This document shows, one piece after another, positions 3,707 to 26,634 of a stretch of DNA of 45,550 bases. The notes below the pieces were generated by a model that had not been told where the DNA came from, ran no database searches, and was given only the letters and a program-made list of their open reading frames with translations. Source of the DNA: an uncultured Flammeovirgaceae bacterium (GTDB lineage Bacteria > Bacteroidota > Bacteroidia > Cytophagales > Cyclobacteriaceae); contig CAKZYJ010000039.1 of assembly GCA_937884755.1 (NCBI GenBank), positions 1 through 45,550 of the forward strand, given 5' to 3'. The stretch's first letter is position 1. Each line of letters begins with the position of its first letter. A program made the translations under genes and the position numbers.

Positions 3707-5020
3707 ATGAAAGATTCCGTCTCCACTATACTTACGGAACTTGCGCCTCCTACTTTAGCCTCTCGCTACGAGGAAGTGCGCCAACAGAGTGTTTATCTGT
3801 GTCAGCCACTGCAACCGGAAGATTATGTGGTGCAACCCATCGTAGATGTGAGTCCTCCCAAGTGGCACTTGGCCCATACTACCTGGTTTTTTGAGCAATT
3901 TATTCTCATTCCCTATTTTCTTAATTACCGGGTTTTCAACGATCAGTTTAATTTCCTGTTTAACAGCTACTACGAGAGCAAAGGCGACCGTATGGTTCGT
4001 ACTAATCGCGGAAACATGACTCGGCCTACCACCGAAGAGGTGATGCAGTACCGTGCCTACATAGACAGCCATATTGCGGAGATGCTTCAGGATGTAGATG
4101 AATCTGATTCAGAAGTAGCTACTTTGCTAGAGCTAGGCTTACACCACGAGCAGCAGCATCAGGAATTGCTGGTGACTGACCTAAAATACATTCTAGGGCA
4201 CAATCCCTTGTTCCCGGCTTACTCCGAAGCTTCCCCTCCGACTTCTTCCGAAAGAATAACTACAGAAGATTACGTGACTATACCTGGGGGGAATTATCAT
4301 ATTGGATTTCAGGGAAATGGATTTCATTTCGACAACGAGGAGGGCTATCACCAAGTTTATTTGGCCGATTACCGGCTGTTGAACCGCTTAGTGACTAACG
4401 GCGAGTTTCTGGCTTTCATAAAAGAGGGAGGCTACCAAAACGCTGACCTGTGGCTATCGGATGGTTGGGCCTGGTTACAGGAAAACCAGATTAGCTCTCC
4501 GCATTACTGGCACCAGCAAAATGGGGAGTGGTATAACTATACGCTACAAGGACTGCGAAAAATTAACCTAGCTGAGCCAGTTACGCACGTAAGCTACTAT
4601 GAAGCCGAAGCCTACGCCCGTTGGCGGGGTAAGCGATTACCCACTGAAGCTGAGTGGGAGGTGGCTTGCCGGTTGGTCGGATACGAAAATGATTTTCACC
4701 AATTATCTTCGGCTAATTTGGTAGAATCCTCTCATTATCATCCCCGTCCTCTTCAAAAAGAGGGTACCGATTCGGTTCCGGCGCAAATGGTAGGTGATGT
4801 GTGGGAGTGGACGCATAGTGCCTACCTGCCTTACCCGTTTTACCAACGCGTAGAAGGAGCGCTAGGAGAATACAATGGTAAGTTCATGATTAATCAGATG
4901 GTACTGCGAGGTGGATCCTGTGCAACTCCCGAAAGCCACTTGCGCATTACGTACCGCAATTTTTTTCAACCCGATAAACGCTGGCAATTTACGGGCTTCC
5001 GTCTTGCCGAACACTGCTAA
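3707..5020 (+). CDS. egtB: EgtB-type sulfoxide synthase, ergothioneine biosynthesis
   Basis: EgtB is a non-heme iron enzyme that joins a cysteine-type thiol to the C2 of hercynine's imidazole ring with O2, forming a sulfoxide. The 437-residue protein has the two expected parts. A DinB-like helical domain carries the likely iron ligands His57 (WHLAHTTWFFEQF) and His147/His151 (HHEQQHQE). A C-terminal formylglycine-generating-enzyme-like fold carries RWRGKRLPTEAEWEVA, GDVWEWTHSAY and LRGGSCATP. The stop codon directly abuts the start of egtD, so the pair forms a unit. No egtA, egtC or egtE is present here. The segment FNSYYESKGDRMVRTNRG resembles EgtB branches that I recall as using cysteine rather than gamma-glutamylcysteine, but this is inference. 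Confidence 0.93.
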   Translation: MKDSVSTILTELAPPTLASRYEEVRQQSVYLCQPLQPEDYVVQPIVDVSPPKWHLAHTTWFFEQFILIPYFLNYRVFNDQFNFLFNSYYESKGDRMVRTNRGNMTRPTTEEVMQYRAYIDSHIAEMLQDVDESDSEVATLLELGLHHEQQHQELLVTDLKYILGHNPLFPAYSEASPPTSSERITTEDYVTIPGGNYHIGFQGNGFHFDNEEGYHQVYLADYRLLNRLVTNGEFLAFIKEGGYQNADLWLSDGWAWLQENQISSPHYWHQQNGEWYNYTLQGLRKINLAEPVTHVSYYEAEAYARWRGKRLPTEAEWEVACRLVGYENDFHQLSSANLVESSHYHPRPLQKEGTDSVPAQMVGDVWEWTHSAYLPYPFYQRVEGALGEYNGKFMINQMVLRGGSCATPESHLRITYRNFFQPDKRWQFTGFRLAEHC

Positions 5021-6052
5021 ATGTCTCAAACCGACCGATCCGAGAAGACTGCCGCTATTTTAGAAGGAGACAGTTTTGAAAGTTATTCTAGAAAAATAAA
5101 CCGGCAGTTTGCTGCCAATGTGTACGAAGGCCTTACTGCGCAAGAGAAATTTCTGCCTTCCAAGTATCTATATAATAAACGGGGTGACGAGATTTTTCAG
5201 CAGATTATGGCCATGGAGGAGTATTATCCTACTCGGGCTGAATATGAAGTCTTTGAACTTCATTGTCAGGAAATGCTGGAGCACTTTGCTCAGAATCAGG
5301 TTCCCTTTCGCCTCATCGAGTTTGGGGCAGGGGATGGCACCAAAACCAAAGTATTGCTTCAGTACTTTCTGGAACAGGATACGGATTTCACCTACGTACC
5401 TATTGATATTTCGGCTAATATCCTACAAGAACTCACGGCTGATTTAGCCGAAAATATGCCTGAACTGAAAGTTCAAGGGATTCAGGATGACTACTTTCGC
5501 GCTATTGATCAACTGAGAGCGTCTTTCAATGGACAGCAGGTTCGTAATGTAGTACTGTTCCTGGGTGCCAATATTGGTAATTTTTCGCATCAGGAAAGTA
5601 TTGGCTTTTTGAAAGAGATTGCCGACCATTTAACTTCGGGCGACTTACTGATGACCGGCTTTGACTTGAAGAAAGATCCAGAACGTGTCCTGAATGCTTA
5701 TTTTGATAAAAATGGTATTACTCGCGACTTTAAACTGAATCTGCTACAGCGCATCAACGATGAGCTAGACGCTGATTTTGATTTAGACAACTTTCAGTAC
5801 TTCCCAATCTACGACCCTATGGAAGGAAGCATTCGTAGCTACTTGGTGAGTAAACAGGATCAGCAGGTAACTATTCGGGCTATTGACGAGGTTGTTCAAT
5901 TTGAGGCCTGGGAGGCAATATATATGGAGCGTTCGCAGAAGTACAGCATCAGTGATATTCAGAAATTAGCTGATAAATCTGGCTTTTCGGTAATCCATAA
6001 CTTCTACGATGCCGACCAGCTTTTCACCGACTCGCTCTGGCAATTGCCTTGA
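5021..6052 (+). CDS. egtD: EgtD, L-histidine N-alpha-methyltransferase
   Basis: EgtD trimethylates the alpha-amino group of histidine using three S-adenosylmethionine molecules, giving hercynine, the substrate of EgtB. The 343-residue length is normal. Visible family features are YNKRGDEIFQQI followed by EEYYPTRAEYEVF (residues 51-78), the SAM-binding glycine-rich loop LIEFGAGDGTKTKVLL (98-113), and FLGANIGNF, part of the EgtD-type methyltransferase core. The ATG follows the egtB TAA with no bases between, which suggests translational coupling. No independent promoter is expected. The identification is firm. Confidence 0.96.
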   Translation: MSQTDRSEKTAAILEGDSFESYSRKINRQFAANVYEGLTAQEKFLPSKYLYNKRGDEIFQQIMAMEEYYPTRAEYEVFELHCQEMLEHFAQNQVPFRLIEFGAGDGTKTKVLLQYFLEQDTDFTYVPIDISANILQELTADLAENMPELKVQGIQDDYFRAIDQLRASFNGQQVRNVVLFLGANIGNFSHQESIGFLKEIADHLTSGDLLMTGFDLKKDPERVLNAYFDKNGITRDFKLNLLQRINDELDADFDLDNFQYFPIYDPMEGSIRSYLVSKQDQQVTIRAIDEVVQFEAWEAIYMERSQKYSISDIQKLADKSGFSVIHNFYDADQLFTDSLWQLP

Positions 6053-9651: not shown

Positions 9652-9703
9652 TTAAATCAAATAGAAAAAATTAAATAAAATATTAGTTGTGTATAATTTT
9701 CAG

Positions 9704-10504
9704 ATGATACGTAGAAAATCAAGCGCGAATATTCTGGGCTTATTCTCAATAATATTACTACTAACGGGTTGCTACTCTAAAAATCAACTGGTCTACCTAC
9801 AAGATAGAGATTTTAACAAGGAATACCCTACTGTAATAAAGAACAGACGGCCAGAATATAGGATACAAATTAATGACGTTTTACAGATTGATATTAGAAA
9901 TCCTGACCCTACAACAACGGCGCTTTTCTCAAAATCTGACGGGCAGGTACTAAATGGAAACGTAAATCCTGCCTTCTTATATTTGTCTGGTTATTCTGTT
10001 GATGATCAAGGGTTTATCAACATTCCTATTGTTGGGAAAGTACGAGTTGACGAACTAACGATTAAAGAGGCACAAACTTTGGTACAAACTGAGATTGACA
10101 AATACCTAAACAATACATCAGTTGAACTCAAATTAGTAAGTTTTAAAATTTCCGTTCTAGGTGAAGTCAATAATCCTGGATACTACCTGATTTACAATGG
10201 TCAGGCAAATATTTTGGAGGCCTTGTCTTTGGCTGGAGATTTGACACAATTCGGAAGTAGAGAGAATATTAAACTTATCAGACAAACAAATGAAGGTTCA
10301 GAAGTAATCATGTTGGACTTAAAAGATGCTCAATTAATGGCCTCTAAGTACTATTTTTTACTCCCGAACGACGTTTTATACGTAGAACCTAACCAGGAAC
10401 AGGTACAGCGTTCTAACTTAGTGCCTCTCACTGTAGTTTTTTCAGCGTTAACTACACTGGCTCTATTTATTAACGCTTACGTGAACGTAACTAGAAATAA
10501 CTAA
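9704..10504 (+). CDS. Polysaccharide export outer-membrane lipoprotein, Wza/BexD-like
   Basis: Wza-family proteins form the outer-membrane channel through which capsular or exopolysaccharide leaves the cell. An ATG at 9704 gives 266 residues starting MIRRKSSANILGLFS and leading to the lipobox LLLTGC, a classic lipoprotein signal. A GTG at 9689 in frame would add five residues ahead of the charged n-region and is less likely. The polysaccharide-export domain follows (YRIQINDVLQIDIRNPD, then GFINIPIVGKVRVDELTI). An SLBB domain comes next (LGEVNNPGYYLIYNGQ through about EALSLAGDL). The hydrophobic C-terminus LTVVFSALTTLALFINAYV is probably a membrane helix. The gene leads the operon and is 12 bases upstream of the autokinase. 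Confidence 0.9.
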   Translation: MIRRKSSANILGLFSIILLLTGCYSKNQLVYLQDRDFNKEYPTVIKNRRPEYRIQINDVLQIDIRNPDPTTTALFSKSDGQVLNGNVNPAFLYLSGYSVDDQGFINIPIVGKVRVDELTIKEAQTLVQTEIDKYLNNTSVELKLVSFKISVLGEVNNPGYYLIYNGQANILEALSLAGDLTQFGSRENIKLIRQTNEGSEVIMLDLKDAQLMASKYYFLLPNDVLYVEPNQEQVQRSNLVPLTVVFSALTTLALFINAYVNVTRNN

Positions 10505-10516
10505 TATCAACTACAA

Positions 10517-12949
10517 ATGGAACAAATAAAAAAAGTGGAAGACGGTGGAGCTGATATTTTGCCTTTAATCCACAAGATTAAGTCAAAGTGGTATTGGTTC
10601 GCTATAAGTACTTTCTTCTTTTTAGTGATTGCTGTAGGGTACAGTAAATTAGCAGAAAAAAAGTATGCTGTTCAGGGTAGTATTCTTTTTGAAGCAAGAG
10701 AGATTGGATCTACTGATGTAGATGAATTGTTAGACGACCGCAATCAAAATACCCGGCGTGATGATAAAACTATTGCGCTATCTAACGAAATTGCCAAGCT
10801 TACGTCCGATAATATGGTCGGTCAAGCTATAGATAAGCTAGATTCGAGGGTTACCTACTTCACTGCAGGGAAAATTTGGCCTGGCTTCTTGAAAAAAAAT
10901 GGCCTTCAAGAGAGATATAAAGACTTTCCTATCGAGGTTGTAATAGATTCTAGCCAATTTCAATTAGTGGGTGCACTAATCTTTGTAGAATATGTATCGG
11001 ATACACAAGTTAATATTAGTGTAGAAGCTGAAGAAGTAAGAGCATATAATTTTGAGACTCAAGAGTTCTCGGGTATTATTCCTAGTGTTTCTTTTTCTGA
11101 AATTATTACTGTCGGCGAGAAACTTCAGACCAGTTATTTGAGTATTGAAATTCGTGAGCGTCCAAGGTCTATGATAAGTAAGGACGAATTTGATTTAGCG
11201 TTTCGTATAAACTCAGACAAGTCGCTAGTTGATAGTTATAAATCTAAGCTTAGTGTATCTCCGGTTGATGAGACAGACCAAGCTTCTCGCGTGGTAAACC
11301 TTAGCATGGAGATTAACATACCTGCTAAAGGCGAGGATTTTATTAATGCGCTAATCGATACTTACTCAAATTCCGTTTTGTTCAAGAAAAATCTGAAAGG
11401 TGAAAATTCACTAGAGTTTATTGATCGTCGTTTAGCAATACTCTCTGATTCTTTGAAAGAAGCGGAATTAGCTTTGCAATCCTTCAAATCTAACTCGGCA
11501 GTAGTAGATGTAGACTATGCTAAAAACAGTCTATATAACCGATTAGATCGCGTAGAACAGGAAAAAGCCCGTATAGATGATCAACTTAACTACTATCGAA
11601 GTACATTAAGAGCGTTGGATACGCCCGGATCGGGATCAATTGTTGCCCCTTCGGCAGTAGGAATTAATGATCCAGTTTTCAACAAGTTAATTGATAACTA
11701 TATTCAACTAAGTGCTCGGTTAGAACAGATGCGCTATAACGCCAAGGACTCGAATCCTCTAGTAACTCAGTTAGAAAGAGAAGTAGAGAATACGAGGCAA
11801 GCTCTGAAAGATAATGTTGGCGGCATTGTTTCAAATTTATCTTCAACTCAAGGAAGGCTAAATAGAGAGATTTATCAATTACGGTCTGAAGCAAATACCT
11901 TACCTCAACAAGAGAGGAAGATTACGGTATTAGAAAGGGATTATAATTATTACAAAGAAAAGTATTCGGCACTAATGGAAAAGAAAGCCGAAGCAGAACT
12001 TATTCTTGCTACCAATACCACCAATGTTGAAACCATTGAGAAAGCAGAAATGGTTGGTAATGGACCAATTTGGCCAAAAACATCCTTGTTTTTGTTTGCA
12101 GCCATCATACTAGGATTAACCTTTCCACTAGCGGTTATAGTGATAACTGACTATTTGGACGATCGAGTACTTGATAAGGATGAATTAGAGAATAAAACAA
12201 AAGTGCCTTTACTTGGCATGATTGCTAACGGGCCTAAAGAATCAGCAATCATTTTAAATATGTATCCTAACTCAGCGATTGCGGAATCATTTAAGTTCGC
12301 AAGAATCAATCTACAGTACTTCCATCAAGACCCTCACGACCAGGTTATTGGAATAACATCTTCCATAAGTGGTGAAGGTAAAACTTTTTGTGCAGCTAAT
12401 TTAGCAGCAACCTTTGCCGATTCGGGGAAACGTACTTTGTTGATAGGCGGCGACCTAAGAAAACCCCGTATTCAAGAGTATTTTGATCTTAGTGGCCCTG
12501 GTTTAACGGATTATATTCAAAATTTTGCAACGCTCGATGATGTGATTCAGCCTACCGAATTTCGTCATTTGGACGTTATTGCTCCGGGTATGCCTCAAGA
12601 CGATCCTACCAAGTTATTTGAATCTCCCAACCTTGACCAACTGATTGCTCTAGCGAGAGACCGGTATGATAAAATCATCATGGAAACGCCACCCATTGGG
12701 TATGTTCCTGATTATTTTGTATTGATTAAGCACTTTGATATAAACTTATTTGTAGTGAGATATAAGTACACAAACAAAAATATTTTAGTAGGCATTAATG
12801 ATTTGTATACCAACAAAAAAATCAAAAACCTTTATCTACTGTTCAACGACGTAAAACACAGTCAAGAATATGGTTATGGTTACCTTAGTAACGACAATGG
12901 GTACTATACAAAGTCTAAAAAGAAAGCTCTAAAGAATCCATTTGCTTAA
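10517..12949 (+). CDS. Wzc-like polysaccharide co-polymerase and bacterial tyrosine autokinase
   Basis: The 810-residue inner-membrane protein is expected to control chain length and export together with the Wza-like channel. An N-terminal Wzz domain begins with a membrane helix (WYWFAISTFFFLVIAVGYS, residues about 28-46). A long periplasmic coiled-coil part follows, then a second helix (LFLFAAIILGLTFPLAVIVI, about residues 525-545). The cytoplasmic BY-kinase domain has Walker A GITSSISGEGKTF (from residue 612), Walker A' LLIGGDLRKP, and a Walker B region IIMETPPIGYVPDY where the usual Asp (DTPP) is Glu. The tail carries a tyrosine cluster (EYGYGYLSNDNGYY), the autophosphorylation sites in this family. 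A phosphatase partner is not in the window. Confidence 0.92.
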   Translation: MEQIKKVEDGGADILPLIHKIKSKWYWFAISTFFFLVIAVGYSKLAEKKYAVQGSILFEAREIGSTDVDELLDDRNQNTRRDDKTIALSNEIAKLTSDNMVGQAIDKLDSRVTYFTAGKIWPGFLKKNGLQERYKDFPIEVVIDSSQFQLVGALIFVEYVSDTQVNISVEAEEVRAYNFETQEFSGIIPSVSFSEIITVGEKLQTSYLSIEIRERPRSMISKDEFDLAFRINSDKSLVDSYKSKLSVSPVDETDQASRVVNLSMEINIPAKGEDFINALIDTYSNSVLFKKNLKGENSLEFIDRRLAILSDSLKEAELALQSFKSNSAVVDVDYAKNSLYNRLDRVEQEKARIDDQLNYYRSTLRALDTPGSGSIVAPSAVGINDPVFNKLIDNYIQLSARLEQMRYNAKDSNPLVTQLEREVENTRQALKDNVGGIVSNLSSTQGRLNREIYQLRSEANTLPQQERKITVLERDYNYYKEKYSALMEKKAEAELILATNTTNVETIEKAEMVGNGPIWPKTSLFLFAAIILGLTFPLAVIVITDYLDDRVLDKDELENKTKVPLLGMIANGPKESAIILNMYPNSAIAESFKFARINLQYFHQDPHDQVIGITSSISGEGKTFCAANLAATFADSGKRTLLIGGDLRKPRIQEYFDLSGPGLTDYIQNFATLDDVIQPTEFRHLDVIAPGMPQDDPTKLFESPNLDQLIALARDRYDKIIMETPPIGYVPDYFVLIKHFDINLFVVRYKYTNKNILVGINDLYTNKKIKNLYLLFNDVKHSQEYGYGYLSNDNGYYTKSKKKALKNPFA

Positions 12950-13084
12950 TATATGTTGTTATTAATAAAGCAAATTCATAGGTATGATCTTATGCAAATG
13001 AAGTTTATAAGGTCAACCATGTTCTGTCCTTAAGTACTGGTGTAAGTTTTGGTCTACTACGAGAGTCGGATGATTTTTTTAGTG

Positions 13085-13127
13085 GCGGTATGAATAGCTA
13101 GAATTACCGCTAAGAAAAATTTTTTTT
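13085..13127 (+). terminator. Possible terminator after the autokinase gene
   Basis: GCGGTA (13085-13090) pairs with TACCGC (13105-13110) across a 14-base loop. A run of eight T residues follows at 13120-13127, after the linker TAAGAAAAA. The nine-base gap between stem and T-run is longer than in a good intrinsic terminator, so this is weak evidence. Confidence 0.3.
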
Positions 13128-13272
13128 GAAATGGGTAGTATTTTATACTACTAAATAAGCCGAAAGCTGGTACATCAAATCTACCTTCACAACCTTCCAC
13201 CTATCTCAATGAAGATAACATTGTGTGAAATTATGCTGAATTGACTAAAGTCCATATGACAAAGAAGCACCT

Positions 13273-13389
13273 ATGCTTTCTAAAAATAAGTTTGAAAAAG
13301 GCACTGTAATGAGAGTACACAAATCAGAGCAACTTGATTTTGCTAGTCGATTTGTAAAAAAAACAGTAAGTTCCAAGAAGTTAGGGTAA
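13273..13389 (+). CDS. 38-residue reading frame directly before a glycosyltransferase gene
   Basis: An ATG at 13273 opens 38 codons (MLSKNKFEKGTVMRVHKSEQ and onward), basic and ending SSKKLG. The stop at 13387-13389 is one base before the ATG of the glycosyltransferase, a spacing typical of coupled genes. I recognise no family. It could be a small coupled peptide, the remnant of a lost gene, or chance. Confidence 0.2.
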   Translation: MLSKNKFEKGTVMRVHKSEQLDFASRFVKKTVSSKKLG

Positions 13390-13390
13390 T

Positions 13391-14467
13391 ATGGGAGGAC
13401 AAGAAGTTTTTGATCAAGTTCTCTATATAGCTCCTAATTACAGATGGTGGAAAGGCGGTATTTCCTCAGTGATTATTGAGTACAAAAAATCCATTAAGTA
13501 CTTTCATTTTTTTCCGAGCACTACTTCTTCCAATATAGTCATTACAGCAATTAGCTTTTTGCCCTTATTGTTGTTGTTTGCCGGTAAGTTACTTATCACT
13601 CCCAAGCTAAAAGTAATTCATATCCACGGCGCATCTAAAGGAAGCTTCTATCGCAAGTACATATTTTATCTTATCGCGAAAAAAATCTTTGGTAGAAAAG
13701 TAGTTTATCACATTCATGGTGCCGGGTATCACTTATTCTATCAAAATGCATCACCTATCATTAAGAATCGAGTTAGTCGCATGATTAATGGGAGTGACGC
13801 GCTTGTTGTGCTTTCGGAATGGTGGCGGGATTATTTTCAATCACACTTTGATCCAAAATTGATTGAAATTATTCCGAATATGGTAGATGAGCCAACTCCT
13901 GTGGAAAAAGCGTCTCAGGTGAATTCGAAAGTTAATCTATTGTTCTTAGGCCGAATAGGTGATAGAAAAGGGATTTTTGATTTAATAGATGTAATTATTT
14001 CTAATAAAAATTTCTTCAAAGAGTATTGCAAGCTTTTTGTTGGGGGAGACGGAGAGGTAGACAAACTAAACCATCTAATTGATCAATACGAAATCCAAGA
14101 TATTGTTAGTTACATAGGGTTTATCGGAGGTTACCAAAAAGCAGAGATTGTAGCTAACTCTGATATATATGTTCTGCCATCGTATAACGAAGGTTTACCT
14201 ATATCAATATTAGAAAGTATGGCCTATGCTAAGCCTATTATTTCTACTAAGGTAGGAGGAATACCCGAAGTGGTGATAGAAAACAGAAATGGATTGTTAA
14301 TTGAACCTGGCGATAAAGATGCACTTTTCAAATCTATACAGAAGTTAGTAAGAAGTAGGGAAGAGCGGCTCCGTTTTGGTGAAGAGTCTTTCAAAATTGT
14401 AGAAGCTAACTATTTTCCCAACCCAGTAATTGAAAAGTTGAAAGGCCTTTATAGAAAAATTTTATGA
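13391..14467 (+). CDS. Glycosyltransferase family 4 (GT-B fold)
   Basis: The 358-residue protein is a retaining GT4-type glycosyltransferase that probably adds one sugar to a lipid-linked EPS repeat unit at the cytoplasmic face. The N-terminal Rossmann domain has GGISSVIIEY and a hydrophobic stretch (ITAISFLPLLLLFAGKLL), likely a membrane-associating helix. The C-terminal donor-binding domain carries LLFLGRIGDRKGIFDLID and the diagnostic motif PSYNEGLPISILESMAYAKP with the E-x7-E pattern, then GGIPEVV. The stop overlaps the start of the next gene by four bases (ATGA), so translation is coupled. Donor and acceptor sugars cannot be predicted. Confidence 0.9.
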   Translation: MGGQEVFDQVLYIAPNYRWWKGGISSVIIEYKKSIKYFHFFPSTTSSNIVITAISFLPLLLLFAGKLLITPKLKVIHIHGASKGSFYRKYIFYLIAKKIFGRKVVYHIHGAGYHLFYQNASPIIKNRVSRMINGSDALVVLSEWWRDYFQSHFDPKLIEIIPNMVDEPTPVEKASQVNSKVNLLFLGRIGDRKGIFDLIDVIISNKNFFKEYCKLFVGGDGEVDKLNHLIDQYEIQDIVSYIGFIGGYQKAEIVANSDIYVLPSYNEGLPISILESMAYAKPIISTKVGGIPEVVIENRNGLLIEPGDKDALFKSIQKLVRSREERLRFGEESFKIVEANYFPNPVIEKLKGLYRKIL

Positions 14468-15747
14468 AGAAGAAATTTTCTTTTTTCAAACGACATATAC
14501 TTAAACATAACTACTTCTTTCATAGAAGATTAAGAGAGGTACAAACTCAGAAAGATTTTCCGAGGGAACTGTTATCTGAACTTCAGAGTGAGCGATTTTC
14601 AGCGATGGTCCGGTACGCTTATAAACACTCAAGGTTTTATAGGCGATTCTATGATGAGCATGGTGTGAACATCAATCAGGTTCAAAATATTCAAGACTCA
14701 GCGAAACTTCCAATCCTTGAAAAGGAAATGGTACGGAATTACAACAAAGGGTTCCTAACTACTTCACCGTATTTTTGTATTGAAGCCCGAACGAGTGGCA
14801 CTTCTGGATCACCACTTGTAGTTTATCGAGACTGGAAATCTACCGTAGTGGAAGAAGCATACTTGTGGCGTCAAAGAGGGATATTTTCTCATAAGTATGG
14901 TGAGCGAGCTGTATCGCTAAGAGGTAATCTTGATCGCTCTAAATTCAAGGAATACGACCCTTTTTCTAAGGTTCTGTATTTAAGTAGCTACTTGCTAAAT
15001 GAGCGTTCTGCGGATCACTACTACCACGAACTTAAGCAGTTTACTCCTAAGGCCATGTATGCTTATCCGAGTTCGTTAGAAACGCTGGCTAATTTTTTAT
15101 TAGATCAAGGAAAGAGCCTTCAAATACCAGTTGTATTTACCTCATCGGAAACTTTATACGATTTTCAGAGAAGTAAAATTGAGAAAGCATTTAATACCCG
15201 AGTGGTTGACTGGTATGGTAATGCTGAAAGAACGATAGCCTTAGAGGAGAACGTAAAAGGTGATTATGATGAATTACCCTTGTATTCTTTTAATGAGTAT
15301 CACGACCAATATACCTTATCTACCGGATTAATTAATTTTTCGTTTCCACTTATTCGCTACAAAGTCCACGATATTATTATTCCGGGTACTGAAGAAGGTA
15401 GAGTATCTAAAATCTTCGGTCGTGCAGATGATGTTATTACCCTACCTGACGGTACCAAAATAGGGCGATTAGGAATGGTCTTTAAGAATATCGATGGATT
15501 AAAATTGGCTCAAGTAGTGCAGGATAATGTAAGGGAGCTAGAAATTAATATCGTTCCTAACCAGCACTTTAAAAAAGAAGAAACCAATTTACTTCGAAAA
15601 AATATGCACAAACGAATTGGTATGGAAATGAAGCTAAATATTCGCATTGTAAATGAAGATGATATTATTAAAACAGAGAAAGGTAAATACAAACTAATAG
15701 TGAATAACCTTAATAAAAGTGTGTTACCTGAACTAATACCTTCATGA
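14464..15747 (+). CDS. CapK/PaaK-like adenylate-forming enzyme in the EPS locus
   Basis: The 427-residue protein belongs to the phenylacetate-CoA ligase/coenzyme F390 synthetase-like branch of adenylate-forming enzymes, whose capsule-locus members are often called CapK. The ATP-binding loop is visible as ARTSGTSGSPLVVYRD (about residues 109-124), and the later core motif appears as DWYGNAERTIALEE, the A5-like Y-G-x-x-E pattern. IFGRADDVITLPDG corresponds to the A8 hinge. Such enzymes activate a carboxylate as an acyl-adenylate. In an EPS operon the product could be transferred to a sugar as an acyl or aminoacyl decoration, but the substrate and the acceptor enzyme are unknown. It starts inside the preceding glycosyltransferase gene by four bases. 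Confidence 0.82.
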   Translation: MKKKFSFFKRHILKHNYFFHRRLREVQTQKDFPRELLSELQSERFSAMVRYAYKHSRFYRRFYDEHGVNINQVQNIQDSAKLPILEKEMVRNYNKGFLTTSPYFCIEARTSGTSGSPLVVYRDWKSTVVEEAYLWRQRGIFSHKYGERAVSLRGNLDRSKFKEYDPFSKVLYLSSYLLNERSADHYYHELKQFTPKAMYAYPSSLETLANFLLDQGKSLQIPVVFTSSETLYDFQRSKIEKAFNTRVVDWYGNAERTIALEENVKGDYDELPLYSFNEYHDQYTLSTGLINFSFPLIRYKVHDIIIPGTEEGRVSKIFGRADDVITLPDGTKIGRLGMVFKNIDGLKLAQVVQDNVRELEINIVPNQHFKKEETNLLRKNMHKRIGMEMKLNIRIVNEDDIIKTEKGKYKLIVNNLNKSVLPELIPS

Positions 15748-15872
15748 TTTGAAGTAAGTCACGAGAAACAAGAGTATCATCTTTCTATAACTAGAAGAAA
15801 GAGAAAATAACCTACCTAACCTAAAGTCCTGATTAGAATTACCGCTACGTTATCTAAATTATCAGAGATTTT

Positions 15873-16991
15873 ATGAAAGATAGAATTCTATTTATCAAGT
15901 TAGGGGGCTTTTCTCACGTCAACAGAAAAGTTGCTGATATACTAAAAAGAAATTATCCTTCTGCCGAAGTTGTAGTTTATGATGTATTAGAGGATCTGTT
16001 TAGCAACAGGTTAATATACCTCACAAATCTATTTTATTTTTTTTGGGAATACCGTTACGATATCATTGCAAGAAATAAGACCCCACGAGAACTGAAATCT
16101 TGTCTGATAGTGACGACATATTTTTTTAAAAAGGTAAAAAATAGAATCAAGACTAAATTTGCTAACCAGCCTATTTCTTTCACCTTTCAAACTCAATCCC
16201 AGTTTGACTGTAGCATCAAGGACATTCCTCATTTTATATATACTGATCATACATTAAGGGCAAACTTCTTGTATCCGAACATTAATTATCATGCATACAT
16301 GAAGCCTAACTTTTATATGTTGAGACTTGAGAAAACCGTATACGACAATGCTAATCGGATACTGACCTACAGTGATTTTGCTAAACAATCCTTAATCAAT
16401 CAGTATGAAATTCAGGAAGATAAGATTAGTGCAGTAGGTATTTCACCAAATGTTCCCAGCCAGTCAGATTCTGACAGCATAAATAAAACCGACAAGGTTG
16501 TGCTATTTGTCGGAATAGATTGGAAGCGCAAGGGAGGCGATTTGCTAGTAGAAGCCTTTATGAAGGTATTGGAGGAAATTCCTGATGCAGTGCTAAAAAT
16601 TGTTGGCTGCAGTCCTCAACATATCAATCATCCCCAAATAAGAGTAGTCGGCAGAGTACCTTTGGAGAAAGTATCTCAGCACTATCAAGAAGCTTCAGTA
16701 TTCTGCATGCCTAGCTTGCGCGAACCATTTGGTATTGTATATCTAGAAGCAATGGCCTACAGATTGCCGATAGTTGCTTTAAGACGTGGGGCTGCTGAGG
16801 AGATTGTTGATCATGGAATTACAGGTTATCTTAGTCAAGAATGCCATGCTGCTTTATCAGAGTATATAATAACCCTTTTAAAAGACTCAGACACGAGTAG
16901 AAAGATGGGAGTAAAAGCTTCTAAAAAAGTTGAAAATTTCTATAGTGAAAAGATATTTGAGAAGAATGTTACAAATGCTATTAGTATCTAA
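15873..16991 (+). CDS. Glycosyltransferase family 4
   Basis: This 372-residue protein has the two-domain GT-B layout. The C-terminal half shows VVLFVGIDWKRKGGDLLVEA, the start of the donor domain, and PSLREPFGIVYLEAMAYRLP, the E-x7-E donor-phosphate motif of GT4 enzymes, followed by RRGAAEEIVDHGITGYL. The N-terminal half has AT-rich codons and little recognisable conservation, as usual for the acceptor domain. It follows the CapK-like gene after a 125-base gap and is probably part of the same operon. The sugar transferred is unknown. Confidence 0.88.
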   Translation: MKDRILFIKLGGFSHVNRKVADILKRNYPSAEVVVYDVLEDLFSNRLIYLTNLFYFFWEYRYDIIARNKTPRELKSCLIVTTYFFKKVKNRIKTKFANQPISFTFQTQSQFDCSIKDIPHFIYTDHTLRANFLYPNINYHAYMKPNFYMLRLEKTVYDNANRILTYSDFAKQSLINQYEIQEDKISAVGISPNVPSQSDSDSINKTDKVVLFVGIDWKRKGGDLLVEAFMKVLEEIPDAVLKIVGCSPQHINHPQIRVVGRVPLEKVSQHYQEASVFCMPSLREPFGIVYLEAMAYRLPIVALRRGAAEEIVDHGITGYLSQECHAALSEYIITLLKDSDTSRKMGVKASKKVENFYSEKIFEKNVTNAISI

Positions 16992-17065
16992 CTTGATTCA
17001 ATAAACTAAAGAATATCTATTATAATTAATTTTATTAAATTACGATACAATTATCAAGTCATACA

Positions 17066-18118
17066 ATGAATAGTATTATAGTAAGAAGCCGAAGAAATGT
17101 TTTTCGTCATGAAACCGAGTTGCTTGCTTCAGAATACGGCTTTCAAGAAATCAATGACGGTGAGACTTCAAAGGGAATAAAAACTCCTAAGGAACTCGCT
17201 TTATTTTTTCTAGGGAATGTCTTTTTCGTATTGAAGAATATTAAAAATTTAAATCGCAAGCATACAATAATCGCTGTTGGCTATCCTGCTCTAGTAATCA
17301 AACTGCTAATAAAATTAGGGTTGGTTAAATGTAAGCAACTACTTTGGTTTGGGTTTTTTATACATACCGATCTTGCGTTCAAAATATTCAGAGTCTTGTT
17401 GAACTTGTTAAGCATTAAGAACGAAAAAATTGTATTAAATGCTTGGTATGAAATACCTCTTTACGCAAAGAGGTTAAATATTGAGGAACATAAACTAACG
17501 TGTCTCCCTCTAGGTGACTGGAAGCCCAATGAACTTTTTGATCCTGCGTATCAACCGCCTTTTAAAGATTACCATTTTGCTGGAGGGTTTACAAATCGCG
17601 ATTATGCTTCACTCATTGAAGTTTTTAAGAATACAAATAAGAATCTTATTATTGTCGGATCTAAGTTGAATTCAGACCTTAATGTTACAAGCCTTCCTGA
17701 AAACATTTTGATACTAAAAGATATTGATAAGGTAGAATTTGAGTCATTAGTGGGTAATTCGTCTGTTTGTATCCTACCTATGAAAGATCGTGACGCTGGC
17801 GCTTCAGGGCATATGGTGCTATTGGCCTATATGCGTCACAAGAAACCTATACTCGCCTCAAATTATCCCGCAATTCAGGAATATCTAACTGACCAAGTAT
17901 CGGGGTTACTATATGATGATCCATTGAAAGATCTTCCGACGATTTTAGAAGAGATTGATCAAAATAAGTATGGTCTAACTGCTTTAGGTGAGAATGCTCT
18001 ACTTTCTTACAATGAAAAATTTACTAGAGAAGCCCTGGCAAATAGGCTAACTGAGATTATTGATGAAAGTTCGATAAATGCGAAAAACAAACTCAAAAGT
18101 ACTGGTATTAACGCCTGA
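17066..18118 (+). CDS. Glycosyltransferase-like protein of the EPS locus
   Basis: The 350-residue protein looks like a GT-B glycosyltransferase but is more diverged than its neighbours. The C-terminal half has the order expected of a donor domain: ILPMKDRDAGASGHMVLLAY (a substitute for the usual E-x7-E loop, with Asp-Ala-Gly-Ala-Ser-Gly), then KKPILASNYPAIQEYLTDQV and SGLLYDDPLKDL. The hydrophobic segment HTIIAVGYPALVIKLLIKLG may bind the membrane. The 3' end overlaps the start of the next gene by 41 bases in another frame. Role inferred mainly from context and this C-terminal pattern. Confidence 0.72.
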   Translation: MNSIIVRSRRNVFRHETELLASEYGFQEINDGETSKGIKTPKELALFFLGNVFFVLKNIKNLNRKHTIIAVGYPALVIKLLIKLGLVKCKQLLWFGFFIHTDLAFKIFRVLLNLLSIKNEKIVLNAWYEIPLYAKRLNIEEHKLTCLPLGDWKPNELFDPAYQPPFKDYHFAGGFTNRDYASLIEVFKNTNKNLIIVGSKLNSDLNVTSLPENILILKDIDKVEFESLVGNSSVCILPMKDRDAGASGHMVLLAYMRHKKPILASNYPAIQEYLTDQVSGLLYDDPLKDLPTILEEIDQNKYGLTALGENALLSYNEKFTREALANRLTEIIDESSINAKNKLKSTGINA

Positions 18119-19205
18119 ATTACAGGTTCCAGGTGGAGTAAGTAACTTCTTCGAGGCTTTACGCCTGGATCGTTATCCAGATATAGAGTACTTCTTTATA
18201 TCTCCTTCAAAAGAAGAAGGGTGGTTGGAGTCTGTTTGGAGGATTATTAATAACTATTACTTATTTATCAAAATATTGTTACAGGGTGAAGTATCAACAG
18301 TCCATGTGAACCCTTCACTTAATCTTAAGTCATTTTTAAGAGACGGAGTTTTTGTTTTCATTGCCCAGATGTTTAGTATAAAAACAATAACGTTCTTTCA
18401 TGGCTGGGATGAAAAATTTGAATATCGATTGAACCGTAATTTGTTATGGAAATGGTTTTTTTCAAAAACATTCCAGAGAAGTGAGCATCTCATTGTACTA
18501 AGCAAGAAATTTAAAAGCAAACTAATAAATCTTGGCTGTTCAGAGCTTACTTCTAAGTTTCATTTACTGACTACGGTAGCTGATACTTCGTTTATAAACG
18601 ATTTTTCAATTGAAGCAAAAATCAATAGCTACGATAATGAAATTGTGATTCTTTTTCTGTCCCGAATTGAGGAAAGTAAAGGTATATTTATCGCAATAAA
18701 AGCTTTTGATCAATTACAAAAAGAAGTTAAACATCTCAGATTTAAGTTAATTGTGGCTGGTGATGGATCTGTCCTAAATCAGGCTAAACAGTTGGTTTCA
18801 GATCAACATATTGAGAATATCGAGTTTACTGGCTATGTACGAAATAATGCCAAAAAAGAAGTATTGCTAAACTCGCATATTCTCTTATTCCCGACATACT
18901 ACGGGGAAGGAATGCCGACAAATATCCTAGAGAGTATGCTGTACGGTATGCCAGTGGTATCACGCTATAATGCTGGAATAGCAGATACAGTTGAGCAAGG
19001 GGTTAATGGATACTTAACTGATAGCTTAGACCCTGAAGTGTTTGTAGATTTTCTAAAGAAAATAGTGCTACAGAAAGATTACTATGAGCAGATAGTAATT
19101 AGAAATAACCAAAAAGCACTGAATAATTATTCGCCAGATAAAGTGAATGAAAAGCTTTTGAGTATATATGGTCTTACTTCATCAAAAAGTTTAATACACT
19201 GTTAA
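18078..19205 (+). CDS. Glycosyltransferase family 4, last gene of the EPS cluster
   Basis: The 375-residue product begins at an ATG inside the previous gene (41-base overlap). The frame is supported because the N-terminus reads VLVLTPELQVPGGVSNFFEA, the standard first strand and glycine loop of a GT4 enzyme. The donor domain shows VILFLSRIEESKGIFIAIKA and LFPTYYGEGMPTNILESMLY, followed by GMPVVSRYNAGIADTVEQG. It is the last gene on the plus strand before the convergent metG locus. Function is sugar addition during EPS repeat-unit assembly by inference from the family and locus. Confidence 0.88.
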   Translation: MRKTNSKVLVLTPELQVPGGVSNFFEALRLDRYPDIEYFFISPSKEEGWLESVWRIINNYYLFIKILLQGEVSTVHVNPSLNLKSFLRDGVFVFIAQMFSIKTITFFHGWDEKFEYRLNRNLLWKWFFSKTFQRSEHLIVLSKKFKSKLINLGCSELTSKFHLLTTVADTSFINDFSIEAKINSYDNEIVILFLSRIEESKGIFIAIKAFDQLQKEVKHLRFKLIVAGDGSVLNQAKQLVSDQHIENIEFTGYVRNNAKKEVLLNSHILLFPTYYGEGMPTNILESMLYGMPVVSRYNAGIADTVEQGVNGYLTDSLDPEVFVDFLKKIVLQKDYYEQIVIRNNQKALNNYSPDKVNEKLLSIYGLTSSKSLIHC

Positions 19206-19300: not shown

Positions 19301-21251
19301 CTAACTTATCCCACTTCCATTTCCAAACTCATTTTCCGGTTGAATAAAGACGAGTGAGCCATTGGAATCTTCGGCCATCAAGATCATACCCTGCGACTCA
19401 ATACCCATCATTTTTCGGGGGGCAAGGTTTACCAGCACGCACACCTGTTTGCCAATAATTGTTTCCGGCTCATAGTGCTGGGCAATGCCGCTGAGTACAG
19501 TACGCTGGTCCAGGCCAGTGTCTAAAGTCAACTTGAGCAGTTTTTTAGATTTTTTTACTTTCTCGGCGGCTAGGATAGTGGCTACCCGCATATCCAGTTT
19601 CACAAAATCATCGTAGGTAATTTCTTCTTTCATAGGTGGAATGGTTGGGGTAGTTCCTTCTGTTGCAGTATCTTCCTGATGCAGTTTAGCTATTTGTTCC
19701 TCTACCCAGGAATCCTCAATTTTCTGGAATAGTAATTCAGGCTTTTCTAATGTATGTCCTACTGTCTGTAAGTCGTCGAGGCCAGCATCGACCCAATCAG
19801 TAGACTGAAAATTGAGCATACGTTGTAGTTTGTCAGCCGTATACGGAAGGAAAGGATGACAAATGACGGACAGACTGGCTGTAATCTGTAAACCAATATT
19901 CAGAATAGTTTCTACCCGATCTTTGTCGTTCTTGATCACCTTCCAGGGTTCGGTATCGGCTAGATACTTGTTACCGACTCGGGCTAAATCAATCATATGA
20001 GCCGCCGCCTCCCGGTAATTGTAGTTCTCGATAGACGTAGCTACTTTGTTCGGGGCTTCCCGAATCTGTTGAAGAGTCTCTTCATCTATGGTGTCTAATT
20101 TATGCCGTTGAGGCACTATTCCATCGAAGTACTTTTGTGTAAGCACCAGGGTGCGATTCACAAAGTTACCGAAGATAGCTACCAGTTCATTATTATTTTT
20201 GGCTTGATAATCTTTCCAGGTAAATTCACTGTCTTTGGTTTCCGGCATAGTGGTACAGAGTGTGTAGCGCATCTCATCTTCTTTCCCCGGAAATTCATCC
20301 AGATACTCGTGCAGCCATACAGCCCAGTTGCGACTAGTGGATAGCTTCTGTCCTTCCAGATTCAAAAACTCATTGGCCGGTACATTTTCCGGTAAAATAT
20401 ATCCGCCGTGCGTATGCAGAATAGCTGGGAAAATAATACAGTGAAATACGATATTATCTTTGCCAATAAAATGAATAAGCTGTGCGTTGTCTGCTTCGTC
20501 CGGTTGTTTCTTCCAGTACAACTCCCTATCTTTTCCATTATCTAATGCCCACTGTTTGGTGGCCGAAATGTAGCCAATGGGAGCATCTAGCCATACATAT
20601 AGTTTTTTGCCTTCAGTGTTGGGAAGCGGAACATCAACTCCCCAGTCTAGGTCGCGGGTCATGGCTCGGGGCTGTAAGCCGGCTTTGAGCCAGGAACTGC
20701 ATTGCCCGTATACGTTGGGTTTCCAGATTCCTTTCTTTCCTTCTAGTAACCACTCTTCCAACCAGGGCTGGTATTTATCCAGCGGAAGATACCAGTGCTT
20801 AGTCGGTTTCAGTACGGGCGATTTTCCGCTTAGCGTTGATTTGGGATTGATCAGATCCGTAGGACTCAGGGAAGAACCACAGTTCTCACACTGGTCGCCG
20901 TAGGCGTGGGGATAATCGCATACCGGGCAGGTTCCGGTAATGTAGCGGTCGGCTAAAAACTGGTTGAACTCTTCGTCGTAATACTGCTCTGATTCCTGCT
21001 CAATAAATTCTCCCTTTTCGTACAGCTTAGTAAAAAAGCTCTGGGAAGTCTGGTGATGAATGTAACATAATGGCTGCTCCGTGCTCGTCGCTACCGCCTA
21101 TGAAAATTATATCGCGTCCTTGCTGGCGCTGATAGCGGACGTAGATATCGGCAGGCAGGTAAGCACCGGCAATATGGCCGATGTGTAATGGACCATTAGC
21201 GTAAGGGAGAGCTGCGGTAACGGTTATACGATTATTGTTTTGATTGGTCAT
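19301..21251 (-). pseudogene. metG: Methionyl-tRNA synthetase gene with out-of-frame internal deletion
   Basis: MetG charges tRNA-Met. The ATG at 21251 starts [20 protein letters not shown] with the HIGH motif ([12 protein letters not shown]), but after [11 protein letters not shown] (ending at 21066) this frame runs into an early stop at 21027-21029. The rest continues in a different frame from about 21064: [18 protein letters not shown], the zinc knuckle CPVCDYPHAYGDQCENC, YVWLDAPIGY, the KMSKS equivalent KLSTSRNWAVW, the anticodon-binding helices and a C-terminal tRNA-binding EMAP/Trbp111-like domain. Compared with E. coli MetG about 40 residues are missing at the junction and the frame is lost. 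Remaining codons give about 62 plus 587 residues. Without an ATG the distal frame could only start at TTG 20761 or similar. It is either a true pseudogene with another metG elsewhere, or a sequence error. Confidence 0.85.
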
Positions 21252-21350
21252 GGAAGTCAGATTACAAATTGCAAAATGGCTAATTGTAGATTGAAATAAC
21301 ACAAATTGAAAGAGCTGCTACAAAGCTAGGTCTTTTCAATTTGTAATCAA

Positions 21351-22835
21351 TCAAAGAGCAGAATTGAAGTGAACGAAGAATCCAGCGGTGCCGGCAATCT
21401 TCCAGGATCGCTCCAGCCGGAATACAGTATCGTAAAAAGTGACGATATCGATGCCCAGTCCGTAGCCCATTAGGTACTGATTAGCCAATCGATCGCTCTG
21501 CTCATACTCAATGGTATTGCTTACGTAGCCGTGGTCAACGTAACCTTTGATATACACGCTGAGAGGGATCACGTTAAATTGATCAATAGGTATATAGCGC
21601 GACATGTCAAATTCAGTAGCGAAAAGGCGCTTACTAATAGTATTCTGTTGCATAACAAAAGCTTGTCCTTCAATCACATCGAGTTCGTAGCCTCGTAGCC
21701 AGAGCCGGTTATAACCCAGTCCACGAAAGTTAGCGTAAGGCTGAAAGCGGGGAGTACTAATATATCCATTGACCGAACTGGCAAAGTAAAAACCTTTACC
21801 CAGGTTGAAGTAGTGGCTGTACATACCCGAAATTCTTAGTAAATCTAGATCACCGAAAATCCCTAATCCTAGCTTACTGATGGAGGCCCGCCAGCGGTAG
21901 CCTTCCAAGGGGTAGCCAACGTAGTCGCGGTGATCGCCGGTGGCAGTGTAGTTGAGCATAAAATACTGCTGCCGCGTGTCGCCATGAGTGAAGTAATTAG
22001 GGTTTAAATCCAGAACCGTATCTGCTACCTGCATATCCGAATAGGTGAGAGTGATACCGTGCGTATTATAGTAGGTGGGGCGGTAGGTCCAACCCGCCAG
22101 CGCGGAAATTCTCCGGGAAGCCGGGTTAAGCGGGGTTTCTACCACCTGATTAGTAAACTGGAATTTATGATCCAGCGTCATGTAGTTGATATTTCGGTTT
22201 TCGGAATAGCTAAAGCCTACTTCTATGCCATTTTTTTGTGCTGCATCTACATAGGGTACCGTGTAGTTTACCCCAAAACGCCGGGTAAAGCCAAACTGGG
22301 CCAACACTGAAAGGCGTTCATTAAGTCCGCGAAAGTTGAATTGTGTGAACTTGATGCCGTAGGTTAATAGATTCCAGTCTGGATCTCTCAGAAATACATT
22401 AATGTTAGGAACAGCTCGGGGCAACGCTAGATGCGGAGTCGGTATAGTGTACCAGCGCTCAGCTACTCGCACAATAATATCAGCCGTACCCGGATAGACT
22501 TCAACTACGTGTAGTTCTACACTTAGAAAAAGCGTGGTGTTTATTAGCTTCTGCCGGTCTTTCTTAAGCAGCTCATTCAGCTCGTATACCGGAAAAGTCA
22601 GACCTTCCTCTACGCTTAATTCCCGTAGAATAATCTTGTTTTTAGTAATCCGGTTGCCCAGCACAAAAATACGGTCAATCGTGATAAAATCGGCTTGGGT
22701 AGAGTCGGAAGTAATGATGTTTGGGGTGGATAGAGCAGAAGTATCTGTAGATACTACTTGCCCCCAGGCGGATAGGGTCAATATCCAGCAACCAAACCAA
22801 CCTATACACTTAAACCAATTCCGCACGGATATCAA
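21351..22835 (-). CDS. Omp85-family outer-membrane protein (POTRA plus barrel, BamA/TamA-like)
   Basis: The 494-residue protein begins with a signal peptide (RNWFKCIGWFGCWILTLSAW, cleavage probably after AWG-Q). One POTRA-like domain follows (ITIDRIFVLGNRITKNKIIL, then LIVRV-like strand DIIVRVAERW, about residues 50-130). A C-terminal barrel of about 340 residues is rich in alternating aromatic strands such as KFTQFNFRGLNERLSVLAQF. It is shorter than BamA, which has five POTRA domains, so it is probably an accessory Omp85 protein that inserts or secretes proteins or acts with lipids. No ATG is available: candidate starts are TTG at 22835 and GTG at 22826. A -7 box lies about 33 bases upstream. 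Confidence 0.82.
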   Translation of the reverse strand: MISVRNWFKCIGWFGCWILTLSAWGQVVSTDTSALSTPNIITSDSTQADFITIDRIFVLGNRITKNKIILRELSVEEGLTFPVYELNELLKKDRQKLINTTLFLSVELHVVEVYPGTADIIVRVAERWYTIPTPHLALPRAVPNINVFLRDPDWNLLTYGIKFTQFNFRGLNERLSVLAQFGFTRRFGVNYTVPYVDAAQKNGIEVGFSYSENRNINYMTLDHKFQFTNQVVETPLNPASRRISALAGWTYRPTYYNTHGITLTYSDMQVADTVLDLNPNYFTHGDTRQQYFMLNYTATGDHRDYVGYPLEGYRWRASISKLGLGIFGDLDLLRISGMYSHYFNLGKGFYFASSVNGYISTPRFQPYANFRGLGYNRLWLRGYELDVIEGQAFVMQQNTISKRLFATEFDMSRYIPIDQFNVIPLSVYIKGYVDHGYVSNTIEYEQSDRLANQYLMGYGLGIDIVTFYDTVFRLERSWKIAGTAGFFVHFNSAL

Positions 22836-23075: not shown

Positions 23076-23972
23076 ATGGCACTAGACTATAACCATCCTA
23101 TCGACATTATTGAAGACATTGATCTTCGTCATTTTGAAGAGAATTATCTTATTCCGCAGAAGCCAGTCATTCTGCGCGGATTATTGAAAGGTACTAAAGC
23201 CTACGATGAGTGGAACTTTGAGTACTTCAAGAGAGTAGCGGGTGATTTAACCATTGGCGTATTTGAAAACCGGGAGGAAGACCTGGATAAAACCATGAAG
23301 GTTCCACATCGGAAAATGAAATTTGCCGACTATCTGGACTTAATTGCTACTACTCCTACCGACTTACGAATTCACTTGTGGAACATCTTTAAAGATTGCC
23401 CGCAATTGATGGATGACTTTGAGTTTCCTCCCATCAATACCACCTTCCTGAAAGGGTTTCCCTATATGTTCTTCGGGGGGCAAGGCTCAGTAGCCCGAAT
23501 GCACCAAGATATTGATATGTCGAACGTGTTCCTTACCCAGTTTGAAGGAAAACGTCGGGTAGTGCTATTCGCTCCTGAATATTCACATTTGCTGTACCGC
23601 TATCCGTTGAATGTACACACCGGAGTAAATGTAGTTAAACCTGACTATGAGCGCTTCCCTGGTTTGAATTACGTAAAGGGTTATGAGTGTGAGATCAAGC
23701 ATGGCGACACCCTCTTTATGCCGGGTGAGTACTGGCACTACATTGAGTACACCGAAGGTGGCTTCGGTATGAGCTTACGTTCGTTGAACCCTCATTTGTC
23801 TAAGCGCTTTAGAGGATTGATGAATATTAGTGTACGTCAGGCCGTAGACTGGTCTATGCGTAAGGCGATGGGCGACGGATGGTTTGAGGCGAAGCAAAAA
23901 ATTGCCGACCGTCGGGCTAACGCCGCTATTCGTAAAGCAACCAAAAAAGAATCAGAGTTGATTCCTCAGTAA
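23076..23972 (+). CDS. Cupin-like (JmjC-type) Fe(II)/2-oxoglutarate oxygenase candidate
   Basis: The 298-residue protein matches the Cupin_8/JmjC-like family, related to FIH-type hydroxylases that use Fe(II) and 2-oxoglutarate. The putative metal triad is His and Asp in ARMHQDIDMSNVF, and His in GEYWHYIEYTEGG. The N-terminal IPQKPVILRGLLKG is the usual start of this fold. Core strands such as GKRRVVLFAPEYSHLLY follow. The basic, Lys/Arg-rich tail (last 35 residues) lies outside the fold. The substrate is unknown; proteins and ribosomal residues are substrates in related enzymes. It is a single-gene unit bounded by its own promoter box and a strong terminator. Confidence 0.87.
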   Translation: MALDYNHPIDIIEDIDLRHFEENYLIPQKPVILRGLLKGTKAYDEWNFEYFKRVAGDLTIGVFENREEDLDKTMKVPHRKMKFADYLDLIATTPTDLRIHLWNIFKDCPQLMDDFEFPPINTTFLKGFPYMFFGGQGSVARMHQDIDMSNVFLTQFEGKRRVVLFAPEYSHLLYRYPLNVHTGVNVVKPDYERFPGLNYVKGYECEIKHGDTLFMPGEYWHYIEYTEGGFGMSLRSLNPHLSKRFRGLMNISVRQAVDWSMRKAMGDGWFEAKQKIADRRANAAIRKATKKESELIPQ

Positions 23973-24004: not shown

Positions 24005-24037
24005 AAGGTCGTATTTTGAAGTACGACCTTTTTTATT
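24005..24037 (+). terminator. Intrinsic terminator after the cupin gene
   Basis: AAGGTCGTA (24005-24013) pairs perfectly with TACGACCTT (24022-24030) over an 8-base loop, followed by a T-rich run TTTTATTT. It lies 33 bases after the cupin stop. An ATG at 24016 that would extend the next gene lies inside this hairpin, which argues for the later start at 24070. Confidence 0.9.
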
Positions 24038-24817: not shown

Positions 24818-25876
24818 CTAAGTACTCGAAGTACGCTTTTCAAATTCCAGTAGCCATTTCTTTCTCTCTATTCTGCCGCCGTATCCAGTTAGGCTGCCAT
24901 CTTTTCCAATAACTCGGTGGCAAGGAATAATGATTGAAATTCGGTTGTGGCCGTTGGCAGTAGCCACTGCCCTAACGGCTGTTGGTCGCTCTAATCGCTC
25001 GGCTTGTTGCTGATAGGATACTGTGTCACCAAATGGAATTTGTTGCAGTGATTGCCAAGCTAGTTGCTGAAAATCGGTACCTGGGGTGTGCAATGCAACA
25101 TCAAATTTCTTGCGCTTCCCCTGAAAATATTCAGTCAGCTCTTTTCGTACCTGCTGTATGTGTACGTTTTCGCCAATGATGATTGTTGCTGCCAATAGTC
25201 TTTGTAAATCTCTGAATTCCGTTTCCAGCATTTTCCTTTCGGTAAACTCCAATAAGCAGATACCTTGGTTAGTAGCACACGCAAACATAGGCCCTAACGG
25301 AGTAGCTATCCGGTTAATGAGGATGATGTTTTTGTTCTTACTTTTTAACGGGGCTTTTCCTACTAGTTTTTTGTACGTATACCCAAAACCGCTCAATGAT
25401 TCATATCCTGAGTCAAAAGCCACTGTGATGGCATTTTTTCCCTCTTTCAGCTCTTGGTACGCATTGTTAATCCGATACATTCTTTGAAAGGTGTGGAAAG
25501 TCAGGCCATAGTGTTGCTTAAACCAACGTCTCACCAGATTTGGGCTTATGTTTTCTTCCCTTAATTTAAAGTTGGAAATTTTTTCTCTGGGAGACTCTTT
25601 TACTAACCGAATAGCTCGTTCCACCTGCTCAGGGGCTTGATGAGCATTTTCAGTAGGCTTGCAAACTTTACAAGGACGAAAACCATCAGTTAGTGCTGCT
25701 TGGAACGAGGTATAAAATACCACATTTTCTTTTTTTGGCTTTCTAGCTCTGCACGTTGAAATGCAAAATACGGATGTGGTAGTAACCCCTACGTAGAAAA
25801 TTCCGATATACTTTGGGTCTCTATTCAGCAATGCCCGATAGTAGTCGTCGATTTTTTCTGGAGAATGAATACGCAT
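24818..25876 (-). CDS. ada: Ada-like regulator and O6-methylguanine-DNA methyltransferase
   Basis: This 352-residue protein has the full Ada layout. The N-terminal zinc domain has four cysteines (Cys38, Cys42, Cys69, Cys72) that in Ada accept a methyl group from methylphosphotriesters. An AraC-type helix-turn-helix region follows (FKLREENISPNLVRRWFKQH and AVAFDSGYESLSGFGYTYKK-like). The C-terminal alkyltransferase domain has the acceptor Cys319 in IIIPCHRVIGKDGSLTGYGG. It would repair alkylated DNA and switch on repair genes. The ATG at 25876 overlaps the stop of the upstream PEP-mutase-like gene (TAATG), so the two are translationally coupled. Confidence 0.93.
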   Translation of the reverse strand: MRIHSPEKIDDYYRALLNRDPKYIGIFYVGVTTTSVFCISTCRARKPKKENVVFYTSFQAALTDGFRPCKVCKPTENAHQAPEQVERAIRLVKESPREKISNFKLREENISPNLVRRWFKQHYGLTFHTFQRMYRINNAYQELKEGKNAITVAFDSGYESLSGFGYTYKKLVGKAPLKSKNKNIILINRIATPLGPMFACATNQGICLLEFTERKMLETEFRDLQRLLAATIIIGENVHIQQVRKELTEYFQGKRKKFDVALHTPGTDFQQLAWQSLQQIPFGDTVSYQQQAERLERPTAVRAVATANGHNRISIIIPCHRVIGKDGSLTGYGGRIERKKWLLEFEKRTSST

Positions 25877-26634
25877 TATTGAAATACTGGTTTAAAAGAA
25901 CCCGATGATTTAATCGCCAGAAGTATGTTTTCTAACTGGTTCAGCATTTTAGTATGTACGAAATTTCCCATAGATATTCTTTTCACACCGAGTGTTTTTA
26001 AAGTCTGAAAATCAGGTAAGTTTGGCGTACCCATCACATTTAGGGGAAGATGTGTCGCCTGAACTATGCACTTGATATCCGCCTCTTTCTCAATACATGG
26101 AACGAAAATTCCATCGGCTCCTGCCTTTTCGTATTGCTTTGCCCTTTTTATCGTTTCCTCAACTGGATTTGTACAATGCAGTAGGAAGGTATCGGTTCTT
26201 ACATTGACGAAAACATCAATACCCTGAGATTTTAGGCTAGTACAAATCGTCTCAAGCTGTTGACTAAAATCATCAGCATTAATTAATTTTCGTTGTTCGT
26301 TTGCTAAACTGTCTTCCAAATTAATCCCTACCACTCCTAATTGTACTAACCTCGTAATGTGATCTACTACCTCATCCGGATGGCGACTATAACCTGCTTC
26401 CAAATCTACCGACAAAGGCAGGTGGACGTTTTTCACAATTCTTTTGATAATATATTCTAACTCGCTAAAGCTCATTTCTTCACCGTCTTGGTACCCTAGC
26501 ATAGCGGCAATTGCCCCACTCGATGTGCCCATGACCGCGTAGTTTAGCTTCGCGACAATTCTGGCGCTAGCTACATCCTACACATTGCCAATTAGCATCG
26601 GTTTGTTCAGATGGTGTAAATCTTTGAAACTCAT
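25876..26634 (-). pseudogene. PEP mutase/isocitrate lyase superfamily protein, interrupted by an in-frame TAG
   Basis: Reading from the ATG at 26634 gives MSFKDLHHLNKPMLIGNV, then a TAG stop at 26578-26580, then DVASARIVAKLNYAVMGTSS and onward to the TAA at 25876. Together this is a normal 252-residue PEP mutase-like protein; the stop sits where the family has Trp (NVWDVAS). The downstream open frame from ATG 26532 is 218 residues and lacks the first beta-strand. Visible family motifs are GTSSGAIAAMLGYQD, VDLEAGYSRHPDEV, GINLEDSLANEQRKL and GADGIFVPC. It lacks the Lys-Lys-Cys-Gly-His motif of true isocitrate lyases. The stop may be a real mutation or a sequencing error. It is coupled to ada (TAATG). 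Confidence 0.85.

Follow-up and report, generated by a model that had tools for sequence, protein, structure and literature searches.

Methionyl-tRNA synthetase (MetRS), the product of metG, is represented by the family models NF001100, TIGR00398 and TIGR00399, and an intact MetG gene is recognized by a single open frame over the whole MetRS profile. Interrupted genes in draft assemblies have been considered by Cooley and Wright (2024) (PMC11017572), who attributed many putative pseudogenes to errors dependent on coverage, platform and assembler. Among the literature matches listed, none described a MetRS gene broken in the manner reported below.

The window, by which we mean the whole 45,550-nucleotide stretch of contig CAKZYJ010000039.1 analysed here, derives from an uncultured Flammeovirgaceae bacterium (assembly GCA_937884755.1) whose genome is an 8.35-Mb draft in 528 contigs, with 97.83% completeness and 3.74% contamination. 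Among the best 80 matches listed, the closest metG genes from named relatives had 86 and 84% identity and belonged to two MAGs, both titled uncultured Flammeovirgaceae bacterium, and, given these nearest relatives and its 528 contigs, the window's genome may itself be a metagenome bin. No single open frame of the window's metG covers the whole MetRS profile; the gene lies instead in two pieces:

19301-21251, minus strand: metG as a whole, start at 21251 and stop at 19301.
21027-21251, minus strand: 5' piece of metG, with the start codon (21251-21249), HIGH motif and GSDEHG, matching TIGR00398 positions 2-56.
21061-21062, minus strand: metG junction, at which 119 bp of all three congeners (G001, G002 and G003) are absent, from an alignment with G001, G002, G003, JC749 and G004.
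19301-21061, minus strand: 3' piece of metG in the other frame, with the remainder of the catalytic domain, the zinc region, KLSTS and the C-terminal tRNA-binding domain, and its stop at 19303-19301.
21351-22835, minus strand: Omp85-domain protein, upstream of metG, the same neighbour as in G002 and G003.
23076-23972, plus strand: Cupin_8 protein, a conserved neighbour in G002 and G003.

The 5' piece keeps the correct frame up to the junction, leaves it after ATG TTA C and continues for 11 codons out of frame before a stop at 21029-21027, whilst the 3' piece restarts with IHHQTSQ, its first codon at 21061-21059. Against the TIGR00398 profile, the pieces occupied positions 2-56 and 95-530, in two frames and in the correct order. 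The 3' piece alone matched NF001100 over positions 101-675 (683.8 bits against a cut-off of 587) and retained the C-terminal tRNA-binding domain (TIGR00399, 140.6 bits, cut-off 116.65), and no further stop was found within it; its zinc region and KLSTS motif were identified by eye. These results agree with the preliminary description in its frames and coordinates (a 5' frame stopping at 21027 and the remainder resuming in another) and in the conservation of both sides of the gap, from the HIGH motif to the zinc region, KLSTS and tRNA-binding C-terminal domain. Shortly before the 5' stop, the minus strand carries six consecutive T (21032-21037).

Alignment of the window's metG with those of G001, G002, G003, G004 (locus L038) and the Catalimonadaceae bacterium JC749 contained one internal gap, of 119 columns, with the other five rows gap-free. 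Between the Leu and Ile codons kept in the window, the congeners have 40 codons, so that 1 base of 120 remains and the net loss between 21062 and 21061 is 119 bp relative to three of three congeners; the earlier estimate of about 40 residues, or about 120 bases, was thus accurate. No inserted bases were present at the junction in this alignment, and the breakpoint can be placed to within about 1 base, the lost stretch being represented only by the sequences of relatives. The lost block comprises 40 residues of the MetRS catalytic domain, between GSDEHG and HHxTSQ, and the reading frame is lost with it.

All 110 metG loci fetched from relatives carried the block in ungapped form (30 from our genome set and 80 from GTDB records, with 102 distinct over the region and some genes in both sets), so chance is no issue for the gap in the window. 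It also aligned ungapped to two solved MetRS, 1rqg and 5gl7, which we take to be the archaeal enzyme and the human cytoplasmic enzyme, respectively. A block profile built from 23 diverse relatives has 9 invariant columns within the 40 residues, and a search with this 23-row profile found the block in 192 of 196 family genomes with completeness of at least 90%. The four others were the window's genome; G006, whose metG match reaches 45 profile positions before the gene is truncated at base 2 of its contig; and G132 and G138. In the latter two, nothing exceeded the metG cut-off, and the weaker matches lay in long frames resembling other class I synthetases. In the five genomes with a short open frame that were inspected (G070, G095, G099, G118 and G142), the metG match always ended 16 bases or fewer from a contig end. 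Within a 39-genome sample, the metG match lay in one frame in all except the window's genome and G006, and exactly one match exceeded the metG cut-off in 38 genomes, with none in the 39th. The window's metG is therefore alone among the genomes examined in being broken inside a contig, open-frame lengths having been seen for part of the 196 rows. Block loss as a lineage trait was ruled out, since no examined relative lacked the block in an otherwise whole metG.

The Omp85-domain and Cupin_8 genes, together with a gene at 24016, are also found near metG in G002 and G003, and these common neighbours identify the window's metG locus as native. The interval between metG and the Omp85-domain gene contains an inverted repeat of 16 nt, its arms at 21260-21275 and 21333-21348 being 94% complementary, and a perfect pair of 11 nt at 21301-21311 and 21334-21344. 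Directly downstream of metG, positions 9689-19205 hold a polysaccharide export and glycosyltransferase cluster, named from sequence, for which the congener stretches gave only distant matches (25-43% identity). Two adjoining genes at 3707-6052 presumably resemble EgtB and EgtD of ergothioneine synthesis.

Substitution counts over the 580 codons downstream of the gap gave no indication of relaxed constraint, there being no excess pN to outgroups: values for the window's metG to three outgroups were 0.163, 0.195 and 0.204, compared with 0.169-0.176, 0.186-0.198 and 0.208-0.211 for the congeners, with pS to the outgroups near saturation (0.69-0.92). Between the window and its congeners pN was slightly higher (0.079-0.100) than among the congeners (0.069-0.075), which may reflect the window's position in the tree. 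Residues unique at columns invariant in the others numbered 4 in the window, 0 in G001, 3 in G002 and 3 in G003. This lack of a decay signal implies that constraint on the rest of metG was unrelaxed up to the time of the loss, or remains so, and old decay, not being visible in the substitution counts, was ruled out. The preliminary description held that any real decay would be recent; the rest of the gene, with neither a further stop nor excess pN, has no signs of decay, which favours an assembly or sequence fault.

The single lesion in an essential, otherwise well-kept gene fits a technical fault better than a real loss, and we know of no bypass for MetRS. We are therefore fairly confident that the gap reflects a sequencing, assembly or consensus fault in a native, ordinary metG, and the living organism very probably has an intact copy. 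The preliminary description had offered two options, another metG copy or a faulty assembly; the former was not borne out in the sequence searched and the latter is the better option, albeit unproved. Both the technical nature of the fault and its kind are what we infer: the 119 bases may have been dropped where coverage was low, through a read that was chimeric or carried the deletion; a false short-overlap join may have removed them; or two templates may have been resolved to the shorter path.

Within the kept sequence, no repeat able to cause a false join at the junction was found, the direct repeats around it being short and imperfect (20 of 21 direct-repeat families). At the block edges, G001, G002 and G003 have a single shared base on one side and JC749 has none, these relatives serving as a proxy for the bases lost from the window. 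Repeat collapse was ruled out, as no fitting repeat existed in the kept sequence or at the block edges of these four relatives. The stretch across the junction (21044-21075) weakly resembles one just upstream of the metG start (21252-21281), in two short matches with spacings of 208 and 206, a likeness that is probably due to chance. As the contig contains no N, some read or join step had to carry the junction and, with no repeat to account for a false join, this weighs against a simple technical explanation and leaves room for a real deletion with an unseen second copy or for a minor allele.

Broken genes were also counted across 0.98 Mb of the window's genome (49 sequences, non-random) and, as a reverse control, across 1.04 Mb of G002 and G003. 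Of 756 ORFs taken from the congeners, 110 reached 65% identity or more in their best match; after removal of 4 rows with less than 60% cover, 100 were whole and 6 were broken, the latter representing 5 genes, since metG was supplied by two congeners and counted in two rows. The four genes other than metG, each identified against G002, were as follows, the first two being listed by contig because gene and span were not paired:

C512, 88897-90508 or 45405-46823: gene with a frameshift, which we take to be ATP-dependent-DNA-ligase-like.
C512, the other of the same two spans: gene with an in-frame TGA, presumably serine-dehydratase-like.
C390, 31958-32671: gene with a TAA, assumed to be pseudouridine-synthase-like.
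C21 (L171, 3-2813): gene with a TAA, which we regard as SusC-like.

None of these had a deletion of the size seen in metG. Overall, 5 of 105 genes were broken in the window's genome, compared with 1 of 99 for the reverse control (a recombinase-like gene of G002), an excess that leans towards poor sequence and is not significant (Fisher p = 0.21; 4 of 104 and p = 0.37 with metG left out). Earlier, laxer counts had given 6 and then 5 broken rows of 86, with 3 of 81 in the reverse control; one row of the window's genome proved to be a natural stop at the protein end, and stops close to a protein end accounted for two of the three rows in the control. A second broken gene within the window is PEP-mutase-like (25876-26634, minus strand), with an in-frame TAG near its start (26578-26580); its PF13714 match begins at profile position 33 after the stop and at position 1 if the stop is read through. 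Stop recoding was ruled out, because the in-frame stops in other genes comprise TGA, TAA and TAG, which no single reassignment fits.

Amongst the alternatives, the one that survives best, although we consider it unlikely, is a real and very recent metG deletion accompanied by an intact second MetRS gene (duplicate, plasmid-borne or acquired) outside the sequence searched. Contigs shorter than 3 kb appear as N in the genome's sequence (three of three seen, C1, C13 and C28, among the first 28 contigs), so a 2-kb gene could hide there; completeness is 97.83%, and a misassembly would have occurred with no repeat to explain it. Against this, a genome search for a second intact metG, which the preliminary description had proposed, found none by profile in the assembly sequence searched, that of contigs of at least 3 kb. 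The remaining TIGR00398 matches were ruled out as a second MetRS, being IleRS, LeuRS, ValRS and CysRS, each of which exceeded the cut-off of its own family within a single frame. Moreover, the exactly one metG match in 38 of 39 genomes would make a second copy unusual, and metG carries no second lesion. The block itself was found elsewhere in the genome neither as DNA (best E 0.6, contigs of at least 3 kb) nor in a protein search (best E 3.9, compared with about 1e-22 for G001, G002 and G003), and its relocation within the sequence searched was rejected on these grounds.

It is improbable that the consensus took up a real deletion borne by a small or dying fraction of the population sequenced. 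The contig may stem from a metagenome bin and the junction is clean, as this explanation would allow, but null alleles of essential genes would be expected to be rare in a population and not to prevail in the consensus. We give very little credence to a functional variant, that is, a split or shortened MetRS or pieces joined by frameshifting. Both pieces are conserved and the six-T run could let the ribosome slip into the 3' frame; however, slippage would not bring back the 40 residues, with their 9 invariant columns and ungapped alignment to 1rqg and 5gl7, the run simply forms two Phe codons that are also present in all three congeners, and no examined relative has such a form. Least credible of all is a real and fixed deletion with Met-tRNA charged by an enzyme unseen by the MetRS profile, or by a two-piece MetRS that does without the block.

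Returning to the technical fault, the break in metG is most likely an artefact rather than new biology. If so, its practical consequence is that a count of profile presence would overlook the break, as the longer piece alone exceeds the curated MetRS cut-offs. A true loss would imply an organism living with no recognizable MetRS, which would be remarkable and finds no support here.

In comparison with known systems, the window's metG resembles the spurious pseudogenes of draft assemblies (PMC11017572) in that a conserved gene is interrupted and other stops and a frameshift occur in the same assembly. It differs in that the study counts frameshifts and internal stops, whereas the 119-bp loss exceeds a base error. 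Compared with MetG as defined by NF001100, TIGR00398 and TIGR00399, the gene lacks 119 bp, equivalent to 40 catalytic-domain residues, and has lost its frame, yet it shares with that family both pieces in their proper order, the C-terminal tRNA-binding domain and a native locus.
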